The notes below the pieces were generated by a model. It made no database searches, was not told where the DNA came from, and saw only the letters and a list, made by a program, of their open reading frames with translations. A stretch of DNA of 64,000 bases, from assembly GCF_001661265.1 (NCBI RefSeq), contig NW_017567019.1, positions 62,001-126,000 of the forward strand, given 5' to 3'. Position numbers and translations under genes: made by a program. Source of the DNA: Saitoella complicata NRRL Y-17804. Its lineage: Eukaryota > Ascomycota > Saitoellomycetes > Saitoellales > Saitoellaceae. Shown here in pieces: positions 17,284 to 53,304 of this stretch; the stretch's first letter is position 1; each line of letters begins with the position of its first letter.

Positions 17284-18786
17284 CTACACCAAACAAACAC
17301 TATCAACACACCCATACCCAGCCGCAACCCCCCCCTCCTCACTTTCCACCCCCTTCGTCCTCAACAACCACCCCGCCTCCCGATTAACCCTCAACCCTCC
17401 CTCATTCTCCGCCGCATCCCACAACGCAACACCATAAACACCCAACTCACCTACAACCCCTCCCTCCAGCAATTCTCCCCCGCGCACAATGGTGTTTCGT
17501 GCTGCGGGAGGCTCAATGAGCTCCATGAGGATGTAGGCATCGAAATGTGCGTCCGAGGGGAGGGAGTTGAGGAATGTGGGGATTTTGGTGCGGTAGATGT
17601 TGTTCCCCCCGCCTTCTCGTTGGGGTTTTAGGACGTATTTTTCGGGGTTTTGGAGGGCTAGGTGGCGACCGAGTTTGCCGGGTTGGGAGTGGGCGTCCAT
17701 GGGGTACAGCGCGGTGAAGGTCCGTCGTAGTCTGGAAATTAGGTTAGAGTAGGAGGATGGGAAGAAGTATTCGAGTTGATTGGGCTCCGCAAGTCGTTGT
17801 TGGACTTTTTTGGCGCCGGCGAGGTGGGTGATGAGGGTTGGACACTTGATCGCCATACTCCTCTCCAACATCTCTCGTGCGTCCCATTCGGTTTGGGTGG
17901 GAAAATCTGTTGGGGCGTAGCCCGCGCGGAAATATACTGTGCTTACTTCCACGGTCGTACCTGATGGGTGTGGGATGGTGAGAACGGAGGTGGAGGGAGA
18001 GATGTGAGCGAGGGAGTGGAGTTCGGCAAGGGTGTGGCGGAGGACTGGGGTAGAGTGGGTTTTGAGGAGGGTGTATTCGAGCCAGCGCTGGTCGAAGGCG
18101 TTGCGTTCGCCGGGTTGTACGACGAAGAGGATCACGACGTTATTTTTCTTTTGTTTGCGTTGTTGGGCGAGGTAGGCTTCATGCGCTGCAGCGAGGCCTG
18201 CTGCGAGTTCGTCGAGTGCCGGATTCGCCGGCAATGCGTCCATGTTGAGGGCGGGGGATGAAGGGAACGCGCCAATACTGAAGAGATGACGATGGAGATC
18301 GGAGACGCGGGTCGAGAGTGCACCGAAGGAGGATGAGACGGTGTTGAACTCGACCTGCTTGATACTCACTTCCTCATCGCCCTCTGCCTGATGCAAGAGG
18401 TAATCCGAGCGGAAGAGTCCGAGGGAGAGGGATTGTGCGAAGCCTGAGGCACGGAGTTTGAGGTGCATGGCCCATAGACGCTCCATGAACTCGTCGACGC
18501 CTTTTAGGGACTCCATCACCTCGCCCAACCATTTCTCGTCCCTACTCACACGGACGTACAACTCGTTGTACATTTCCTGGACATCTCTGGCTTCCATCCA
18601 CGCTTCCCGCGGGAATAGGGACGGGAAGAGGGTCACGGGTGCCGCGGTCGCGAGGGTGTTGGAGGGGTTTGTGGGCGCGAGGGAATCGGCGGGACGAACA
18701 ACGAGGCCGTGAGCGAGGGCGTAGTCGGTCAGGGAGGAGTGGAGGTACTGTTTCTGGGCCTCGGTGAGGGAGGGGGGGTAGGCCAT
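17284..18786 (-). CDS. GSH2: Glutathione synthetase GSH2
   Basis: A 500-residue eukaryotic-type glutathione synthetase, which joins gamma-glutamylcysteine and glycine with ATP in the cytosol. Recognisable segments are LGLFRSDYLLH, KQVEFNTVSSSFGALSTRV (substrate site), LKPQREGGGNNIY (the glycine-rich ATP loop) and YILMELIEPP. The length matches the family. The start at 18786 gives the usual short N-terminus. GSH2 faces ADE2 across a 172-base divergent promoter. The C-terminal end ends in CVDSVCLV, which I cannot match but which is reached without a frame break. Confidence 0.96.
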   Translation of the reverse strand: MAYPPSLTEAQKQYLHSSLTDYALAHGLVVRPADSLAPTNPSNTLATAAPVTLFPSLFPREAWMEARDVQEMYNELYVRVSRDEKWLGEVMESLKGVDEFMERLWAMHLKLRASGFAQSLSLGLFRSDYLLHQAEGDEEVSIKQVEFNTVSSSFGALSTRVSDLHRHLFSIGAFPSSPALNMDALPANPALDELAAGLAAAHEAYLAQQRKQKKNNVVILFVVQPGERNAFDQRWLEYTLLKTHSTPVLRHTLAELHSLAHISPSTSVLTIPHPSGTTVEVSTVYFRAGYAPTDFPTQTEWDAREMLERSMAIKCPTLITHLAGAKKVQQRLAEPNQLEYFFPSSYSNLISRLRRTFTALYPMDAHSQPGKLGRHLALQNPEKYVLKPQREGGGNNIYRTKIPTFLNSLPSDAHFDAYILMELIEPPAARNTIVRGGELLEGGVVGELGVYGVALWDAAENEGGLRVNREAGWLLRTKGVESEEGGVAAGYGCVDSVCLV

Positions 18787-18958
18787 GCTGTACGATCTGG
18801 ATCAATGGATCAACGGGGACTGACTTGGTGGTGAGTTTGGTCTGGCAGTACCCGCCGCCCTGGCTAAAACTTTAATCCAGCGTACGCTCGGCGGTAGGAA
18901 CTTTATCGTCCTCGAGACTTGAAGATTTTTTAAGTTGATCCGTTGATCTACAACCTTC

Positions 18959-20617
18959 ATGGACACTCGAACACTCGGTATCCTCGGCGGCGGTCAGCTG
19001 GGCCGTATGCTCGTTGAATCCGCCCACAGACTCAACATCAAAACCCTCCTCCTCGACGCTCCCGGCGCTCCCGCAAAGCAAATCAACGCCCTCCATGACC
19101 ACATCGACGGTTCCTTCAAAGACGCCGCAAAGATCAAGGAGCTTTCCCAGCGCTGCGACGTCATCACTACCGAGATCGAGCACGTCGATGCAGCTCCGTT
19201 GGCGGAACTCGAGAAGCAGGGATTCGAGGTTTGGCCGTCGAGTGCTACGATTATCACGATTCAGGATAAGTACGTCCAGCACAAACACCTCGCCGAACAC
19301 GACCTTCCTCTGCCATACTTCATTCCGATCGACACCCCAACCACCGAGGCTCTCGAGAAGACTGGCGCAGAGCTCGGATACCCTTACATGCTCAAATCCC
19401 GTACCATGGCCTACGACGGTCGCGGAAACTACGCGGTCAAGTCCTCCACCGATATTCCTGCCGCTCTGGAAGCATTGGGCGACAAACCCCTCTACGCGGA
19501 AAAATGGTGCGAATTCACCCGCGAGTTGGCGGTGATGGTGGTTCGTGGTAAGGATGGTCAGGTGGCTTCATACCCCGCCGTCGAGACCGTACAGGAAAAC
19601 TCAATTTGTAAATACGTTTACGCTCCTGCACGGAACCTCTCCTCCGAGCTCCAATCCGCTGCGCAAAAGTTGGCACGTGAGGCGATTGCTTGTCTCCCTA
19701 CCGGCGCTGTCGGTATTTTCGGAGTCGAGATGTTTGAGCTGCCGGGTGGTAAGCTTCTCTTGAATGAGATCGCGCCCCGTCCTCACAATTCCGGTCACTA
19801 CACCCTCTCCGCCTGCGAAATCTCTCAATTCGAGGCGCATATTCGGGCTGTTATGGGGTTGCCACTTCCAGAGACGATTGGAGAGATGAAGGTGCAGCAT
19901 TGTGTCATGTACAACCTCCTCGGTGAGGAAACGATCGATGTAGCGAAGAACTCACTCAGCGTCGAGGGCGCCTCAGTCTACCTCTACGGCAAAGCAGAGA
20001 TGAAAAAGGGCAGAAAGATGGGCCATATCAACATCGTCGGCTCAACCCCCGCCGAAGTCGACGAGCGTCTCGCGCGTGTACTCGGAAAGAAGGAGCCAAA
20101 GCGCACCCCCGTGGTCGGAATCATCATGGGCTCAGACTCGGATTTACCCACGATGCGCCCCGCCGCCGAGTTCCTCACAAAATTCGATATCCCGTTCGAG
20201 TTGACGATCGTTTCTGCCCACCGGACTCCGGAGCGTATGTTCACCTACGCACAAACCGCCTCCGCCCGTGGTCTCCAAGTCATCATCGCCGGCGCAGGCG
20301 GGGCTGCGCATCTCCCCGGTATGGTAGCCGCACTGACCCCACTTCCCGTCATCGGTGTCCCCGTCCGTGGGTCTGTTCTCGATGGTGTGGATAGTTTGCA
20401 TAGTATCGTACAGATGCCGAGGGGTATTCCGGTTGCTACTGTGGCGATTGGGAATAGTACTAATGCGGGGTTGTTGGCGGTTAGGATGGTTGGGATGGGA
20501 GATTTGAGGGTTAGGGAGAAGATGGAGGGGTTTATGAGGGCGCAGAGGGAGGAGGTTGAGGGGAAGATTGAGGTGCTTGAGAAAGTTGGGTGGGAGGAGT
20601 ATGGGTTGAAGAAGTGA
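18959..20617 (+). CDS. ADE2: Phosphoribosylaminoimidazole carboxylase ADE2
   Basis: A 552-residue bifunctional purine enzyme with a PurK-like ATP-grasp domain (about 1-375; GGGQLGRML at the start, [16 protein letters not shown] near the active site) fused to a PurE domain (about 383-545; [14 protein letters not shown] and AHRTPER). It converts AIR to CAIR in IMP synthesis. The fusion is the standard fungal form and its length is normal. The last 200 bases switch to G/T-ending codons (GGGGTATTCCGGTTGCTACT). Confidence 0.97.
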
Positions 20618-40629: not shown

Positions 40630-43011
40630 TTACAGCACCTTCGCAATAACCCCCTGAACCCCCCTCAACACATCCACCGGCGTCTTCTGCCCCGCCATGA
40701 AATACACAACATTCCCCAACGGCCTCGCCATAACATTCCCACCCTCCAACTCTTCCCACCTCTCCTCCCTCATCCTCGCCAACATGGTTTGTGCCGCACT
40801 CGACGCGTAACCGGCTTCCGAAGTCTTCAGTGTAATCGCGAGAACGGAGCCGAGTGCGATGACGCCGTCGACGTTGGGGTGCGAAGAGATGTCGTACACC
40901 CAGGATTTGGACCACACGCTCCATGGTGCAGCAGCGTTCTGAGTGGTTGTGGCTGTGGTGGTGTGCGTGTTCCAATCCTCTTTGTGCGCATTCCAGACAC
41001 CCTCCTCATCCCCACTGTTCATTACCTCCAAACTCGTACAAGCGACCTCGCAACCGACCGCATGTGCCGTGTAACTGTGGCCGTGCAACAACGCATCCTC
41101 CTTCTTCCCGCTCAGGAAGGCCTCGAAGATACTTTTTGATGCGCAGGTGGCGGAGAGAGGGAGGAGACCGCCGGTTAGGAGTTTGGCGTAGATGCCGATA
41201 TCGGGGTGAGTATTGGAGCCGAGGAAGGAGGAAGGGGTAGGCTGGCCGAGGCGGTAGAGACCCGTGAAGACTTCGTCGAAGATAATGGGGAGGCCTGTCC
41301 ATGCGTTCGAATCGCCTGTCGGGGTAAAGTCACCGGCGGATTTGGGAGATCCGATAGAGAAGAGATTCGTCGATGAGCGAACGGTATCGACCAGTGCGCG
41401 TTGGTAAAGCGGATCAACAAACACCATCCCCCCCGCACCCAAAATAATCGGCTCAACAATCATCGCGCCAAATCTCCTTCCATCCCCAATGATCACTTTC
41501 TCCAACTCCCCCTTAACCCGCCTACAATACATCTCATACATCTTCCCCCCAACCCGCTTCTCCACATCCATTACCCCCTCCAACCCCTCAAACGTCTCCA
41601 CCTCTCCACTCGGCTGTCGCACCTCCCACACACCCTTCCTCAATATTACCGTCGGTGGTTTGAACCAGTATCCACGTCCCTTGTGCCACTCAACACTCTC
41701 ATTAAAGATATTCGACTCGGAACAATCCATCGCGCCCATCGTATCACCGTGGTAATTCCCATCCATACCCAAGACCTCGACATCCTTCTTATCCGTCCAC
41801 GCATACCTCACCCTCGCTGCCCTCATACCCATCTTGAGAGCGACTTCGACGCCCGTACTCCCGTTATCGCTGTAAAAGACGCGTTGAAAGCGGGGGTTGC
41901 GGAGGGTTTGAAGGAGGGAGTCGGCGAGGCGGAGAGCGGGTTCGTGGATGGCGTTTGCGAACATGACGTGTCCGTAGCGGCCTGCGGCGTGGGCTGCGGC
42001 GAGTGTTAATTGGGGGTTTGCGTGACCGAGGCCTTGTGTCCACCATGATGCTGACGCGTCGTGGGTTTGTTGCAACAAGTTGGCGGAAGGAGCGGAAGCG
42101 GAAGGAGAGAGGGTGGAGAAGAAGTCACCGTGGGCAGAGTCGATGGTGGTAATCTTCCCCGGATCAAGCAACTCAGAATGCTGCGCAAACGGCCACCAAA
42201 TCCTATCCTGAGCACGCTGTGCCAACGTCTCGAGCGCCTCACGCCTCATCTCATGCGTCTCCTTCAACATCTCCAACGTCCGCTTAATCAACTTGCTCCC
42301 TGAAACAACCTCATAATACGCTGCCAACGCTTTTTGATCTTCCGCTGAATCTTCCTGACGTGGTGGCGGTCCGGGCAAAACGATTGTCGGGATCGGTTTC
42401 GAGAGGGAAGCGAAGTGGGATTGGAGGTATTCGTGGTTACGGTAGTAGTTGTCTCGGAAGACGAATACGGCATCTGTATCGTACCCGCGGATATGGAGAC
42501 CTTCGTGGGCAGCGATGGAGGTGGAGATACCGCCGAGGTGGGGGTCCGCGACGAGTATGGTGGGAAGACGGAGGGGACGGTAAAAATCGGCTTGTGGGAC
42601 GCGGTTGAGGGTGGGTGAGTGAATCCCACCCGCGGTTTCGAGGAAGAATGAGCCGGGTCCGGAGGAGGCGGCCATGTTGAGATAGTTCGAGACTTGCGAT
42701 AGAACCGAGTGGTCGGACGGCGGTGTCGGCCCCGCGACGAGATGCGGACTTACCGGGTCCGAGTACTGCCACAAACATTTCGGGGTCACGTTTGGTAGAT
42801 CCCCGGTATATCTCTTCACATGGCTATCATCTGCATCTTTTGCTTCACCGGTCGAGATGGGTTTGAGGTACCATGTCTGTTCTTGCGGGTAGTTGAGTGC
42901 GGCTGCGCGGGTGAGGATGGTTGAGATGATTGTCTTTCCGACGTTTGTGTTTGCGCCGTAGATTTGGTGGGTGTTGATGGAGCGGGAAAGGAAGGAGGAG
43001 ATGCCTGGCAT
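40630..43011 (-). CDS. Bifunctional biotin enzyme BIO3-BIO1 (BioD-BioA fusion)
   Basis: A 793-residue fusion. The N-terminal dethiobiotin synthetase domain has the P-loop YGANTNVGKT and is followed from about residue 270 by a class III aminotransferase (DAPA synthase) with WWTQGLGHANPQL, YSDNGSTGVEVALKMG, IFDEVFTGLYR and the PLP lysine in AKLLTGGLLPL. It makes DAPA from KAPA and then dethiobiotin, normally in mitochondria. The ATG at 43011 is chosen because the upstream opening starts at a non-ATG codon. Such BioD-BioA fusions are known in fungi and plants. ISU1 starts 191 bases away on the other strand, and BIO2 lies 5.6 kb to the right. Confidence 0.94.
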   Translation of the reverse strand: MPGISSFLSRSINTHQIYGANTNVGKTIISTILTRAAALNYPQEQTWYLKPISTGEAKDADDSHVKRYTGDLPNVTPKCLWQYSDPVSPHLVAGPTPPSDHSVLSQVSNYLNMAASSGPGSFFLETAGGIHSPTLNRVPQADFYRPLRLPTILVADPHLGGISTSIAAHEGLHIRGYDTDAVFVFRDNYYRNHEYLQSHFASLSKPIPTIVLPGPPPRQEDSAEDQKALAAYYEVVSGSKLIKRTLEMLKETHEMRREALETLAQRAQDRIWWPFAQHSELLDPGKITTIDSAHGDFFSTLSPSASAPSANLLQQTHDASASWWTQGLGHANPQLTLAAAHAAGRYGHVMFANAIHEPALRLADSLLQTLRNPRFQRVFYSDNGSTGVEVALKMGMRAARVRYAWTDKKDVEVLGMDGNYHGDTMGAMDCSESNIFNESVEWHKGRGYWFKPPTVILRKGVWEVRQPSGEVETFEGLEGVMDVEKRVGGKMYEMYCRRVKGELEKVIIGDGRRFGAMIVEPIILGAGGMVFVDPLYQRALVDTVRSSTNLFSIGSPKSAGDFTPTGDSNAWTGLPIIFDEVFTGLYRLGQPTPSSFLGSNTHPDIGIYAKLLTGGLLPLSATCASKSIFEAFLSGKKEDALLHGHSYTAHAVGCEVACTSLEVMNSGDEEGVWNAHKEDWNTHTTTATTTQNAAAPWSVWSKSWVYDISSHPNVDGVIALGSVLAITLKTSEAGYASSAAQTMLARMREERWEELEGGNVMARPLGNVVYFMAGQKTPVDVLRGVQGVIAKVL

Positions 43012-43201
43012 CGTGATTGATGCTTGCTGTTGAAGGATCAATGAATGGAAGGGTTTGTATTATCGGGTTGTAGGCGTCACTCACTCTTCGACACTCGACG
43101 TCTGGTGGCGAGTTGCACGTGCAGGCCTGCGTCTTATGTGATTTGACGTCGACCCTCAAAATCCTGAACTCCATCCAAATCAAAATTCAAATCAAAACAC
43201 A

Positions 43202-46157: not shown

Positions 46158-46696
46158 TGCCGGGACTGCGTTGGGTGTGGGGAGTCGATGGGTGTTTCTG
46201 GTGTTTTGGGAGACGCGACTTCCAAATTCAGGGCAAATGCAATCGCGACGCGAATTCGAAGCAGCCGCGATGCGAGAAAGAGGGACAGGGAGTGAATGCT
46301 GGCGGAACGAGGCATTCACCGTTCACAGAAGCAGTGCCATCGAGGACAGCTCGTAGGCATTACGCTTGATGTCTCTGCTGCCCTCCTTTGCCCAGTCAAG
46401 CACAGCAAACTTACGCATATGCATACACGACCGGCAGTACTCACTTCTCTGGCCATGGGCATTCGCTTATCACACACATATCCTACCCCAGCCAAAAGGG
46501 CTCATGAATTGCTATCAGATGATACCCTACGCCCCCTATTCAATGCGGTTGACCCATCCTCCTGCTGTGCGTGAAGATTGCCCATTTATGGGGGGTACCT
46601 CAAGTGAACGCCAGCGCCGCGGCGACTCCACAACCCCAGTTGACATCACCGTCGCAAACCAACCTCAAACGCTACAACTACAACACCAGAGTTACA
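46158..46696. other. Divergent promoter region DPB2 / CAB5
   Basis: The 539 bases between two gene starts have open frames on both strands that lack conserved character. No tRNA-like pair of A and B boxes was found by eye. Confidence 0.55.
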
Positions 46697-47431
46697 ATGT
46701 TAATCATCGGGCTAACAGGCGGCATCGCAACAGGCAAATCCACCGTCTCATCCCTCCTCTCCTCACCCCCCAACCCCCTCCCAATCCTCGATGCAGACGT
46801 CATCGCCCGCGAAGTAGTTCTCCCCGGCACTCCCGCCTACCGCGCCATCGTCTCCCACTTCTCACCCACCGTCCCGGACCTCCTTGAAGATGATGGGACC
46901 CTAAATCGTGCCGCGTTGGGTCGAGCGGTGTTTGGTGAGAGCGAGGACGCAAAGAGGGAGAGAAAGGTCTTGAATGGAATTACGCACCCCGCTGTTAAAC
47001 GGGCTTTGGTGTGGGGTGTGCTCAAGGCTTGGGTGAGGGGGGAGTGGGCTGTTGTGTTGGATGTACCGTTGTTGTTTGAGGGTGGGTTGGATAAGTTTTG
47101 TGGGGCGACGGTATTGGTGGCGTGTGATCTCAAGATACAGAAGGAGAGATTGCTGCAACGGAATCCACATCTGAGTGAGGAGGAGGCGGATCAGCGTATT
47201 GCATCACAGCTCTCGCTCGAGGATAAACGCCGACGCGCGAATATCGTGATCGAGAACGACGGATCTCTTGAAGATTTGGAGAGGAGTGTGAGAGGTGTGG
47301 TGGAGGCGTTGAAGCCGTGGGGGTTGGTAACGTTGATGGAGTGGTTGATTCCGGGATTTGGGTTGTGGATGGCGGGGAAGGAGTGGTTGATGAGGAATTA
47401 TTGGAGGGGGGAGCGGAAGGCGAAGTTGTAA
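46697..47431 (+). CDS. CAB5: Dephospho-CoA kinase CAB5
   Basis: A 244-residue kinase for the last step of coenzyme A synthesis. The P-loop GGIATGKST is at residues 8-16, DADVIAREVV follows, and the CoA-domain segments LLFEGGLDKFC and QRIASQLSLEDKR are intact. The start at 46697 puts the P-loop at the usual distance from the N-terminus. A C-terminal stretch with hydrophobic residues (about 213-235, LVTLMEWLIPGFGLW) may be a membrane tether as in other fungal and animal forms. Codons shift from C-ending in the first half to G/T-ending in the second. Confidence 0.95.
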   Translation: MLIIGLTGGIATGKSTVSSLLSSPPNPLPILDADVIAREVVLPGTPAYRAIVSHFSPTVPDLLEDDGTLNRAALGRAVFGESEDAKRERKVLNGITHPAVKRALVWGVLKAWVRGEWAVVLDVPLLFEGGLDKFCGATVLVACDLKIQKERLLQRNPHLSEEEADQRIASQLSLEDKRRRANIVIENDGSLEDLERSVRGVVEALKPWGLVTLMEWLIPGFGLWMAGKEWLMRNYWRGERKAKL

Positions 47432-47628: not shown

Positions 47629-48270
47629 TTAGTAGTTACGCCTATTTGTGTTTGACGCACTAACCTGGAACTTCGAATACACCGGCATAACACCAAACGC
47701 CCTCGCCCTCTTAATCGCCCTCGCAACCCTCCTCTGATTCTTCGCACTGATCCCCGTATCGCTCGCCGGCCTAATCCTCCCCATCTCAGTAACGAACGCA
47801 TTCAAAAGAAACGGATTCTTCCATTCCTTCTCCGGATTCACCCCGAGAGCCTCGATCCGGTCCCTCTTGACCATACCGCGTTTATGGCGCCGATCTAACC
47901 TGACTTCTTCCGCCTTTTCGAAGGAGAAGTCACGGGGCTCGTACGTTTGTCCGTAAGAGAATTCGCGTATGGTGTTGCGGCTCAACCTGATGGGTGTTTC
48001 GGGGTCGTCTTCTGTGGATTGTTGGGTTGCCCATTTCAATGCATCTGCACCGGAGGTGGACTTCTTGTCCATGGTTGCTTGCCAGTCGAGTTTAGGGGCG
48101 GTGGAGGTGGAGGTGGGGTCCGCTGGCTTGTCTTCTTTAATTTGGGAGAGCATGGAGAAGAGGGCATCGGCGGTTTTTTCGTTGGAGGTCGTGTTGCAGA
48201 CCCGGGCGGAGGTGGAGAAGGTTGCCCGTGAGCAGACGGACTGCACTGATCTTAATGATGAGCGGAACAT
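47629..48270 (-). CDS. RSM18: Mitochondrial ribosomal protein bS18m (RSM18)
   Basis: A 213-residue protein. The ATG at 48270 (MFRSSLRSVQSVCSRATF) gives a good mitochondrial presequence, so I prefer it to an in-frame ATG at 48375. The C-terminal half contains the S18 fold: NPFLLNAFVTEMGRI, then GISAKNQRRVARAIKRARAFG. It belongs to the small subunit of the mitochondrial ribosome. The gene is convergent with CAB5 and divergent from BIO2. Confidence 0.92.
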   Translation of the reverse strand: MFRSSLRSVQSVCSRATFSTSARVCNTTSNEKTADALFSMLSQIKEDKPADPTSTSTAPKLDWQATMDKKSTSGADALKWATQQSTEDDPETPIRLSRNTIREFSYGQTYEPRDFSFEKAEEVRLDRRHKRGMVKRDRIEALGVNPEKEWKNPFLLNAFVTEMGRIRPASDTGISAKNQRRVARAIKRARAFGVMPVYSKFQVSASNTNRRNY

Positions 48271-48663
48271 CCTTGCTGTTATGTGTTTTCTTTGGTGGAG
48301 TACTTGGACGTTCACTTGGTCGAAATCTCGAGCACCTGCAGATGCAGCCCCTGCTGTGCCCGGCAGTCCCCACATGTCCCCAAGCTTGAATCCTTCAGAT
48401 CGGAGTTGTTCTGTATTGTTTTCATTCTTCTGTCACTTCTATCTTTCTCCGATAGCCTTTTCTCGGGTAGATGATCAGATCGCTGCTTATCTAATTAGAA
48501 TGATTCCCCAACGACTCACCTGCCGGGGAATTCAACTCGAGGAGCGCTCAAGTTGACAACCTCGTGAAAACCAACCCCAAGCACACCTCCTCTTCCACCC
48601 AGTTGATCTCGACTCCCCATTCACTCCCTTCCAATCTTTCTTTAAACCAACATACTAGGCACA
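48271..48663. other. Divergent promoter region RSM18 / BIO2
   Basis: These 393 bases contain an in-frame upstream extension of RSM18 to 48375 and otherwise no supported feature. Confidence 0.55.
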
Positions 48664-49854
48664 ATGCTCTCCCGTCAGGCTCTCCGCCGGGGCGCTTTCC
48701 TCACCAGATCTTTCGCTACGGCTACAACCTCTGGTCCCCTCCCCACCGCCGAGGCCGCAACCCCCGCCGTCAGGAATGACTGGTCCCGCGAGGAGATCCA
48801 AGCAATCTACGACCTCCCCCTCATGGACCTCGTCTACAAAGCCGCAACCGTCCACCGCGTCCACCAAGATGCTCGCAAAGTCCAACTCTGCACACTCCAC
48901 AACATCAAAGAAGGTGGATGCACGGAAGATTGCTCTTACTGCGCCCAATCCTCCCGCTACAAGACGACCGTCAAAGCTAAGAAAATGGCCGATGTGGATG
49001 AAGTCCTCGAGGCTGCGAGGAAGGCCAAGGCGAACGGATCGACCCGATTCTGTATGGGTGCGGCTTGGAGGGATATGCGTGGTCGTAAGTCCGGGATGAA
49101 CAAAATTATCACCATGGTCAAGGAGATTCGGGCAATGGATATGGAAGTCTGCACCACCCTCGGAATGGTCGATAAAGAGCAAGCTGCGTTGTTGCGCGAA
49201 GCTGGTCTCACAGCCTATAACCACAACCTCGATACCTCCCGCGAACACTACCCCAACGTCATCACAACCCGCTCCTACGACGAGCGCCTCGCAACTATCA
49301 AAGCTGTCCGGGATGCCGGTATTAAAGTCTGTTCGGGTGGAATCGTTGGATTGGGTGAGACTCGCACGGATCGTGTCGGGCTTATCCATGAATTGAGCAA
49401 CCTCCCAACTCACCCCGAGTCTGTCCCGATTAACGCTCTCGTTCCGATCCCTGGTACTCCGTTGGGCGACATCGAACGTCTCCCTTTCCACGACGTCCTC
49501 CGTACCGTCGCGATTGCGCGTATTACCATGCCTCTCACCGTCGTCCGTCTCGCTGCGGGCCGTGTCTCCATGACCGAAGAGCAGCAGGCACTCTGCTTCA
49601 TGGCGGGTGCGAATGCGGTGTTTACTGGTGAAAGGATGTTGACGACGGGATGTTCGGGATGGGAGGAGGATCATGCTTTGTTGGGGAGGTGGGGAATGAG
49701 CGGATTGGGGGCTTTTGAGGGACAGAACATGGTTGGTGAGCCGGGTTATAAGGGACCTGGACAGGAGGAGGCTGTCACTAAGATTCAGGAGTTGAAGGGA
49801 GAGGAGGCGGTTGCTGCTGGTGGGTGTGGATCTTCTGGGTGTGGATGTGCTTAG
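48664..49854 (+). CDS. BIO2: Biotin synthase BIO2
   Basis: A 396-residue radical SAM enzyme that inserts sulfur into dethiobiotin in mitochondria. The radical SAM cluster motif is CTEDCSYCAQSSRY (C-x3-C-x2-C). Ligands for the second, sacrificial Fe-S cluster are expected in the segments CMGAAWRD and VCTTLGM and the arginine near RLAAGRVSM. An Arg-rich presequence fits mitochondria. The C-terminus ends in a Gly/Cys-rich tail (CGSSGCGCA), which is unusual and could bind metal. BIO3-BIO1 and ISU1 lie within 8 kb. Confidence 0.97.
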   Translation: MLSRQALRRGAFLTRSFATATTSGPLPTAEAATPAVRNDWSREEIQAIYDLPLMDLVYKAATVHRVHQDARKVQLCTLHNIKEGGCTEDCSYCAQSSRYKTTVKAKKMADVDEVLEAARKAKANGSTRFCMGAAWRDMRGRKSGMNKIITMVKEIRAMDMEVCTTLGMVDKEQAALLREAGLTAYNHNLDTSREHYPNVITTRSYDERLATIKAVRDAGIKVCSGGIVGLGETRTDRVGLIHELSNLPTHPESVPINALVPIPGTPLGDIERLPFHDVLRTVAIARITMPLTVVRLAAGRVSMTEEQQALCFMAGANAVFTGERMLTTGCSGWEEDHALLGRWGMSGLGAFEGQNMVGEPGYKGPGQEEAVTKIQELKGEEAVAAGGCGSSGCGCA

Positions 49855-50027: not shown

Positions 50028-52759
50028 TCACATGTGCATATCCTTGTCTAGCTCATCCCACCCCTCCTCCCCCCACCCCCCAAAACACCCAAACCGATGA
50101 TTCAACTCCTTCCTCCAATGCAACCCATATGTACTCTCCACCGCTCCCGTCCCCGCCACAGCCCTCCCATACACCAACATCCTAATTCTCGAGTGCACGA
50201 GTGCCATACAACACATCACGCATGGCTCGTGTGTGGTGAGGACGATATAGTTTTTACACAAATAGGGTGCGTCTTCGGGGTTGGGGGCGGGGGGGAGGGA
50301 GGCGTGGTGGGTTGCGACGGAGGTGATTGCGTTCATGATTGAGTGGTGGAGGGGGTGGGAAGTTGAGTGGCGAGTGTCGTGGGCCGAGCCGACTTCGGTC
50401 CATGTTGTTGGATCGATGATGACTGTGGCGATGGGGAGTTCGCCATTCAGTTTTGCCTTGGCGACGAGGTTGTGGAGGGTGTCGTAGTGCGGTTGGAGCT
50501 TGTCGAGGGGTGGGAATGCGCTTTGGACTGATCGTGCTGAGTCGGCTTTCAGAACTAGTGGCCATAGCTCGGCCCAGGATATCATCTGCTCCATCGTCAA
50601 AGGTGCATGCTTCGATATCTGCCCAATCACCACCGGGAGGTCCAGGTCCTTGGCGGCCAGCATCGCGGTGATTTCCTCGAAAGTATGTGCTTCCGTGCTG
50701 CACAGCACGATCTCCAGTTGCATCGGTTTCCTTCCCTTGCTGTCCAGCTGGCCGTCGATCTCCGTCTTCTTTAGTCGTTTGACATGGGAGAGATCGTGTG
50801 GATCAACAGCGGATTCCACGATCGTCTTTACCAGCTTCGTGACGACTGGTGTATCCCTCGGTGACATCGTCGCGATATAAACATCAAGTTTCTCCAACGG
50901 CCTCGTCTCCAGATGCGACTTGATAAACCGATAGCTCGAAAGATGCGAAAATGCACCATTCGGTTCCGGTGTCGCAATCTCCTCGTTCCCCCGTTTCCGT
51001 CCCTTTATTCTTGGTACGGGAGTTTCCGCCTTGATCTTGGTCTCCTCCTTCTCCCCAAACTCTTCCACAACCCACCGACAAAACGCTCCAAACTCCACCC
51101 TCCACTCCGCCACCCTCCTATCCCTCTCCTCCTCCGTCTCAAAAGCTGCATGCTGTACGCTCGCCTCAGCCAAAGCCCCGGCTCCTGCCAATCCGAGGCT
51201 ATCCCACCCCATCAAGCACTGGTAAAATTCCATACTGACACCAGTCTCGCCCTGTCCGAGGATAGCTGGGTCGTCGTTGCTGAGGGTGCAGGTGACGCCG
51301 TTTGCTAGAAGGGCTGGGAGGGGGTGTGTAAGGATCGTGGGTGTAAGTCGCAATACCTCGTTTGAGATCGGGCATGACTCGATGCAAATGTTGTTCTTTA
51401 CACATTCCTGCATGAGAACAGGGTGTTTGTGCAACGAGAACGCGTGCCCGATCCTCTTCGCCCCCAACAACACAGCATCATACAAATTATCGTCCGCGTC
51501 CGTCCCCGAGCCAAGGGTTTCGCCGGCGTGGAACATGAAGGGGATATCCAATCCCAATTCCATACACCTGTCTCTGAAAGCCAATAGTTCGGGAATGTAG
51601 TCCCTGAGCGGCAACCCTGCATCTTCCTGCCCAACCATGTCGAACCCGGCAATGACGTGCGGCAAAACTTGCTTGACTTTGACACATTCGTCTAAGGAGT
51701 CACGCAGTGCTTCGGGGCCGAGGGAGCGGAGGAAACAATAGATTATCCGTGCGCCCCAGAAGTCGGGGTGCGAAGCTTTGAATCGTTGGACTTCCTCGTC
51801 GAAGACTCTGGCCAGATCCACGCCAGCCAACATCCCGGCATTTGGATCAGAACGTCCAAAAACCCATCGCACATCCACCCACTTCACTCCATCTTCCAAA
51901 AGTCCTTCCAACATCTTCTGCACGTATCGTCGAAAAATCGGTGCATGAAAGATGAGTCCTTCCACAACCAGAAAACATTCCACGAACTTATCCCATACGG
52001 TTCTATGGGACCATTGGTGGTGTTGTGCATCTGCGTGGGTAATAGAGGCTTTGGAGGTAAGGAAGTCGGCGAAGGTGGCCCAGGTGTCAGAGGGTTGGAA
52101 CTGGGCGATGGCGTCGGAGAGGAGGGTGAAGGAGCCGGGACGGTAGTGAGGCGAGTACAGCATTGTCACTGGATGGGCAAGTGTAGTTTTTTGTGCGGTG
52201 CGAAACTTGTAGTATCGGAACCTGATTTTGCCTGTATGTAGATCGTCGAGAGTGACGAGAGGTTTGTCCGATTGGAGATATATGTCCCCAAATGGGGTGA
52301 GTGTATCCCCATCTTCTTCTCCTTCCTCATCTTCCTCCGACACACCAATTGCGATGCCAAGCAGATCCCGCACTGTAAGTCAATGTCAGTAAGGACTTCA
52401 ATCCTATCAACAAACACTTTACCTTGCACCATCGCATCTCCATGCGCATGCAACAGCGCTCCCTTTGGCAGCCTCTTGACGATCTCCCACAGCTTCGTTT
52501 CTCGAATACGCTCTTTCGCAAAACCGAATGGCATTCCAGGATAAAGTTCATCGTTTCCGCCTCCACCCTCAGCTCCGGAGTTTGACCAAACTTTCTCGGC
52601 CTCCTCCTTCCGAATCTTGTCGAAAATGGCGCATGCTTGCTGTTCAACTGGACTCAACGAAGATCTGAAGAGCGCGTCGGATTTGAAATCAGCAGCCTCC
52701 TCGATCAATCCCTTTCTCCTATCTTTATAAGCTTTCAACCTGTCATTCCCGTCGTTCAT
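50028..52759 (-). CDS. TAD3: ADGF-type adenosine deaminase fused to tRNA deaminase subunit TAD3
   Basis: Exons 52759-52423 and 52372-50028 (50-nt intron, donor GTAAAG) give one frame of 893 residues. Residues 1-550 are an ADGF/CECR1-type adenosine deaminase: LLHAHGD (zinc histidines 104 and 106), FHAGET (394-397 region), RIGHAFSL and LSNDDPA (catalytic Asp pair, about 478-480). A Glu/Lys linker (about 553-597) leads into TAD3: LDVYIATMSPRDTPVV, HVKRLKK, then the CDA fold with HSIM (789-ish, no catalytic Glu) and HEPCVMCCMAL (C830, C833). TAD3 with TAD2 makes inosine at tRNA position 34. TAD3 homology begins before any local ATG, and no stop or good splice pair lies in the linker, so the fusion looks real. 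No signal peptide is present, although many ADGF proteins are secreted. Confidence 0.88.
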
Positions 52760-52888: not shown

Positions 52889-53304
52889 ATGTCGTTCGTT
52901 CCCAAAGCTGCTTTCAAGCCTGGCAACTTCGTCCACTACGTCAACGCGCGAGTTCTCCGCGATGCCAAGAATCGTCAGGCGGCTGCGGAGGCGGAGCCTA
53001 TGAGACAGGCGTTGAGATGTACGTTCGATCCCTCCGCCCCACATCGCTACATTGCACAATCGGATAACTAATATTTATCCAAGATATTGTCCGCAACACC
53101 AGTCTTCCCCCCCGTGCCCGCGCCCAGGCCCAGCTCCAACTCTCCAACATGCCTTCAGAGACCAGAATGACCAAAGTCGTGGACAGATGTATTGTTTCTG
53201 GTAAAGGACGTGGTATTTTCAGGAAGTTCAAGATGTCAAGGTTCCAGTTCAGGATGCATGCGTTGAGGGGAGAGTTGCCCGGTGTTAAGAAGGCGGTGTG
53301 GTAG
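52889..53304 (+). CDS. MRP2: Mitochondrial ribosomal protein uS14m (MRP2), two exons
   Basis: Exons 52889-53018 and 53084-53304 give 116 residues. The C-terminal half carries LPPRARAQAQLQLSNMP, VVDRCIVSGKGRGIFR and MSRFQFRMHALRGELPGV, the S14 signature without the zinc cysteines of the cytosolic form. It belongs to the mitochondrial small ribosomal subunit. The 65-nt intron has donor GTACGT and branch point CTAAT. The start (MSFVPKAAFKPG) is 129 bases from the divergent deaminase-TAD3 start. Confidence 0.93.

Follow-up and report, generated by a model that had tools for sequence, protein, structure and literature searches.

A predicted fusion of an ADGF-like deaminase with TAD3 in Saitoella complicata

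Closest described systems and layout of the gene

The nearest precedent for the locus described here is Rib2 of yeast, in which a metabolic deaminase and an RNA-modifying enzyme are joined in one fungal protein. As set out in excerpts of the source, Rib2 consists of a pseudouridine synthase and a deaminase of the riboflavin pathway, with the RNA-modifying part first, and the deaminase stands alone in moulds (PMC8256712); the order of the parts and the enzymes themselves thus differ from those of the present gene. The Tad2–Tad3–Ame1 complex of Fusarium offers a second comparison, as it shares with our locus an extra protein at the TAD3 N-terminal domain. In the excerpted account, Ame1 binds this domain of TAD3 and mRNA editing relies on the Ame1–TAD3 interaction, whereas Ame1 differs from the domain found here in being a separate, DUF726 hydrolase-like protein that is specific to the sexual stage (PMC11087585). 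Both the TAD2 and the TAD3 subunit are described as essential in the same excerpts (PMC11087585); every cell must accordingly tolerate a fusion to TAD3. For basidiomycetes, a 2020 review, as excerpted, states that mRNA editing in the species examined, all of them Polyporales, goes beyond A-to-I changes, and does not settle which enzyme is responsible (PMC7306014). The third comparison is with the ADGF subfamily, which includes human ADA2 (CECR1; PDB 3lgd/3lgg); excerpts of a study of the Helix ADGF report that it prefers AMP and caution that the family alone is no safe basis for an adenosine assignment (PMC10358891).

The window, by which we mean the whole 64,000-nucleotide stretch that was analysed, carries on its minus strand a gene of two exons (52759-50028) that encodes 893 residues from ATG to stop. 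The earlier note had proposed a single spliced frame of this length, and joining the exon 2 frame to the ATG at 52759 gives exactly 893 residues. The features of the gene are as follows.

52423..52759, minus strand: exon 1, 112 codons plus one base, with the N-terminal region and the first zinc motif
52373..52422, minus strand: intron of 50 nt, GTAAAG...ACTGAC...TTACAG, splice score 20.3
51063..52372, minus strand: ADGF/ADA2-like adenosine deaminase domain with FHAGET, RIGHAF and SNDDPA, from Pfam, PDB and TIGR01431 matches
50898..51062, minus strand: Glu/Lys-rich spacer, unaligned, residues about 550-604, with no stop in frame
50028..50897, minus strand: TAD3, N-terminal domain and CDA-fold pseudo-catalytic domain, from PDB 7bv5_C and Pfam PF00383
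52456-52433, minus strand: motif LLHAHGDA, exon 1, first zinc motif
51533-51516, minus strand: motif FHAGET, deaminase domain
51455-51438, minus strand: motif RIGHAF, deaminase domain
51281-51264, minus strand: motif SNDDPA, deaminase domain
within 50357-50334, minus strand: motif HHSIM, TAD3 part
50228-50211, minus strand: motif EPCVMC, TAD3 part

On the minus strand, the reading frame of exon 2 runs uninterrupted from 52379 down to its stop codon at 50030-50028, and both domains exceed their Pfam cut-offs within this single exon of 781 residues. The intron at 52422-52373 was picked by eye, on its donor, its branch sequence ACTGAC and its TTACAG acceptor, from 24 frame-keeping GT-AG choices, the donors having been tried in one 200-nt stretch; it is the only one of the 24 that gives 893 residues, and its score of 20.3 comes from a model in whose training set the same intron sat. 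Exon 1 alone matches no Pfam family, and no homology match spans the exon 1/exon 2 junction, the exact position of which is not set by homology. The end of exon 1, however, contains the wholly exonic LPKGALLHAHGDAMVQ, which matches the equivalent place of ADA2 (10.3 bits, i-E 1.5) and of the Helix AMP deaminase (15.0 bits, i-E 0.057) as a separate, weak stretch, that matching ADA2 being MPKGAALHLHDIGIV. As this zinc motif raises the ADA2 score from 185.7 bits for exon 2 alone to 198.6 bits with exon 1 added, exon 1 is taken to be part of the gene.

The two deaminase domains

In the first half of the protein, Pfam A_deaminase (PF00962) scores 80 bits (cut-off 27), and with exon 1 included the best PDB match is ADA2 3lgd (E 1.4e-57), with further matches to a chimeric AGSA adenosine deaminase (9nti, 4.3e-45) and to the Helix AMP deaminase (9nte, 9e-45). 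The HxH, HAGE, GH and SNDD zinc/catalytic motifs are all intact, and the Pfam and PDB matches agree with the earlier description of an ADA-fold enzyme that keeps HxH, HAGE and SNDD. The narrower label of ADGF type holds in part. TIGR01431 (ADGF) is the top family among the seven listed (E 3.4e-80, next 6e-28) and ADA2 is the best structure, but the TIGR01431 score of 270.2 bits, with exon 1 included, falls under the curated cut-off of 315, and for this reason we name the domain ADGF-like; by that cut-off it is not a formal ADGF member.

Compared with human ADA2, about 310 residues align, the weakly matching stretch of the first zinc motif not counted, and the catalytic motifs are in common. 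The fusion protein differs from ADA2 in its N-terminus, which is not signal-like, in scoring below the TIGR01431 cut-off, in being joined to TAD3, and in having a longer stretch of poor alignment that separates the HxH motif from the remainder of the barrel. About 95-120 unaligned residues lie after the first strand, where the ADGF insertion (receptor-binding) domain would stand, and structure prediction for exon 2, run with no alignment, was of low quality (pLDDT 35.3, pTM 0.25). No signal-like N-terminus was found in the first 70 residues, where the top 15-residue hydropathy is 0.37 on a simple scale that is not a signal-peptide predictor. It had been suggested that the fusion anchors a normally extracellular enzyme class inside the cell; the lack of a hydrophobic signal-like stretch agrees with this, but the argument is weak in that fungal ADGF proteins, to our knowledge, likewise have no signal peptides.

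The second half is best matched in the PDB by the TAD3 chain 7bv5_C (E 4e-23; residues 54-339 of the 342-residue query), in an alignment that begins at chain residue 40 and takes in both the N-terminal domain and the CDA domain. Three ADAT3 chains match over the last 200 residues at 1.7e-21 to 3.7e-21 (9hmm_B 1.7e-21, 7nz7_B 3e-21), and Pfam PF00383 scores 39.7 bits (cut-off 25). We take 7bv5 to be the yeast protein, and 9hmm and 7nz7 to be mammalian. At the pseudo-active site HSI replaces HxE, with Ile in the place of the Glu, whereas PCVMC is kept; the two motifs align with HSV/PCSMC of 7bv5_C and HAV/PCVMC of 9hmm_B, such that the PCxxC motif and the missing Glu are common to the fusion protein, to TAD3 and to ADAT3 (7nz7, 9hmm). 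These findings support the original identification of a TAD3 that lacks the catalytic Glu (HSIM). The 7bv5_C, 7nz7 and 9hmm chains are free-standing, whereas about 550 residues of deaminase come first here. The assignment of an N-terminal domain ahead of the CDA domain rests on the full-length 7bv5_C match, and a 106-residue piece comprising the end of the linker and the TAD3 N-terminal domain gave no match when searched alone. A TAD2 identity for the second half was considered and rejected, as the exon 2 query matches TAD2 3dh1 at 0.0042 versus 1.3e-22 for 7bv5_C.

One polypeptide or two genes

The homology to deaminases extends to about residue 543-549 and that to TAD3 sets in at residue 605 (50897), which leaves a spacer of about 55 unaligned residues, or about 165 nt, that includes a basic stretch RIKGRKRG (51011-50988). 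The spacer is Glu/Lys-rich and stop-free, as had been noted, and longer than the roughly 45 residues first given. The nearest in-frame ATG before the start of TAD3 homology is M500 (51212), inside the deaminase, and the nearest after it is M615 (50867), 10 residues downstream, consistent with the claim that TAD3 homology begins ahead of any local ATG. The open frame alone is modest evidence for a fusion, because 749 of 3312 overlapping 165-base stretches of intergenic sequence have no stop in a given frame (0.226; 12 gaps delimited by hand, both strands), and with one third allowed for phase the chance of an in-phase open spacer is 0.075, or 0.046 from Markov sequence, that is, about 5-8%. Nor is the lack of room decisive: the three same-strand neighbour gaps in the gap list, at about 350 to 950 nt, are all longer than the spacer, but six convergent or divergent gaps in this compact window, at 80-173 nt, are as short as it is.

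The linker was examined for an intron with a model that scores donor, branch site and acceptor together. No CTRAY-type branch site stands ahead of a YAG in 51400-50600, and the model found no high-scoring GT-AG pair in 51200-50820, where the best pair, 50956-50907, scores 10.3 and its best branch site -1.0. Across 66 control windows from eight single-exon ORFs, the top pair of each window scores 11.9 at the median and 17.6 at the 90th percentile; the highest reaches 19.9, not far from the value for the intron of the gene itself (20.3). Of the training introns, ten lie between 18.8 and 29.8, and the one placed a base out of register scores 9.7. The training set comprises 11 introns, namely nine of 12 strict matches chosen by eye, together with 52422 and 53020, of which 53020 is the one out of register; the strict matches left out are 29929 and 30002, which overlap each other, and 16051. 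One member, 44802 (18.8), lies antisense within the frame that carries the DNA polymerase subunit B domain and is probably spurious, and the loose intron pattern is not enriched over Markov sequence (91 found versus 108.4 expected). The earlier statement that the linker holds no good splice pair is thus supported by a model that is small and hand-picked, with branch scores that are partly circular.

One alternative is an arrangement of two genes, in which an ADGF-like gene adjoins a TAD3 gene that starts at M615 or by way of a tiny first exon. For the latter, an ATG at 50959-50957 followed by removal of 50956-50907 would give MTRPLEKLDVYIA..., that is, in-frame TAD3 after a bare ATG; the ATG and the GT-AG pair are present, in the right phase, and the pair is the top-scoring one of the region, but it lies under the control median and under ten of the eleven training introns. 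An AATAAA within the linker (51009-51004) and the short convergent and divergent gaps elsewhere would also suit two genes, as would the poor coding score of the fused frame in the linker, which is below zero in four of the five 15-codon windows with starts at 51035-50939, a stretch in which another frame does slightly better. The GC3 of the linker, by contrast, is coding-like. Against this, the deaminase would be left with no stop of its own in frame, and a start at M615 would cut away LEKLDVYIAT, the aligned start of TAD3. We regard two genes as unlikely. The TAD3 homology ahead of M615 and the lack of a convincing intron to supply a start are stronger points for a fusion than the open frame, and on the sequence as it stands it is highly probable that one polypeptide carries both domains.

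Two further alternatives accept the fusion and are each quite unlikely. The TAD3 half may have arisen by duplication, or be a copy in decay, with the essential TAD3 encoded elsewhere in the genome, but a near whole-length alignment, an intact zinc motif and the absence of any stop or frameshift speak against decay. Alternatively, the ADGF-like half may be a non-catalytic scaffold or sensor that regulates the tRNA enzyme; its score of 270.2 against the curated ADGF cut-off of 315 would allow this, as would its position just before the TAD3 N-terminal domain, the region bound by Ame1 in Fusarium according to the excerpted source (PMC11087585), although the recognised zinc and catalytic motifs that it keeps would be needless in a pure scaffold. 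An assembly error that joined two loci is very improbable, given that both halves are intact in one frame and that the GC3 of all three segments lies within the range of 11 neighbouring frames (0.60 for residues 552-601; neighbours 0.57-0.69), the absence of N from the window proving little by itself.

Proposed working, relatives and neighbourhood

For the fused gene product, we think it fairly likely that a single cytosolic or nuclear bifunctional polypeptide is made, whose TAD3 part is partnered with a separate TAD2 in a 2:2 assembly; single-chain expression, the activity of each part, the assembly and the localisation are all points that we infer. To judge from its motifs, the N-terminal ADGF-like domain would deaminate free adenosine or a close relative (deoxyadenosine, AMP) by means of its zinc site, and it probably dimerises like ADA2. 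A flexible, charged linker would tether the deaminase to the TAD3 part, which is predicted to have its own N-terminal tRNA-binding domain and would pair with separately encoded TAD2 to form inosine at tRNA position 34, the expected 2:2 complex being held by the deaminase dimer. As to what the fusion does, a neutral joining of two compatible neighbours is the default. A coupling of adenosine deamination, and hence purine salvage, to wobble decoding is possible, as we infer from the pairing. A bolder and rather unlikely reading is that the ADGF-like half serves as a built-in specificity or sensing subunit of TAD2–TAD3, in analogy with Ame1, which confers on TAD3 its mRNA editing role in Fusarium; such a subunit would tune the choice of RNAs for editing, or would match wobble inosine to how much adenosine nucleoside is present.

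Searches of viral contigs with the TAD3 part and with the deaminase part, as single queries and as alignments, gave no confirmed relatives. The TAD3 alignment matched 303 stretches of genome contigs; 25 loci held up on confirmation, every one of them in a record with a bacterial title. The TAD3 part matched at all 25 loci and the deaminase part at none (E 0.01, up to 6 kb of flank), and we read the loci as TadA-type. No description of a deaminase–TAD3 pairing was found in the literature, in a search of open-licence full texts, in accord with the view that the pairing is undescribed. We regard it as a new pairing of families that are each already known, and the fusion may already be annotated somewhere with no comment. 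If conserved in its lineage, it would indicate a physical link of nucleoside metabolism with wobble decoding, and would offer a natural system in which to learn how additional domains at the N-terminus of TAD3 alter the targets that the enzyme edits; if confined to one species, it would be a curiosity comparable to the Rib2 fusion. The pseudouridine synthase of Rib2, too, presumably acts on tRNA.

The surrounding genes (Mad3/BUB1 kinase, RPA1, ATG7, a VTC domain, and ribosomal proteins S18 and S14) are eukaryotic and, in our judgement, fungal; RPA1 has its best match in 4gnx (8.1e-157), which we take to be from Ustilago maydis. Scans of the 64,000-nt window for tRNA and Rfam families were empty. 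The S18 homologue (47632-48276, minus strand) and the S14 homologue (52889-53304, plus strand), both probably mitochondrial, lie on either side of the pair made up of the fusion gene and a biotin-synthase-like radical SAM/BATS gene (48667-49854, plus strand), and the S14 and fusion genes may share a promoter, since their starts are 129 bases apart. A frame with AAA_26 and class-III aminotransferase domains (40630-43059, minus strand) looks like a fused dethiobiotin synthase and DAPA aminotransferase and, with a CoaE dephospho-CoA kinase (46553-47431, plus strand) and the biotin-synthase-like gene, all within 9.3 kb, forms a possible biotin/cofactor cluster. Elsewhere in the window, glutathione synthetase (17287-18801, minus strand) and an ADE2-type AIR carboxylase (18947-20614, plus strand) are divergent frames with about 145 bases between them, a spacing that indicates a compact genome.
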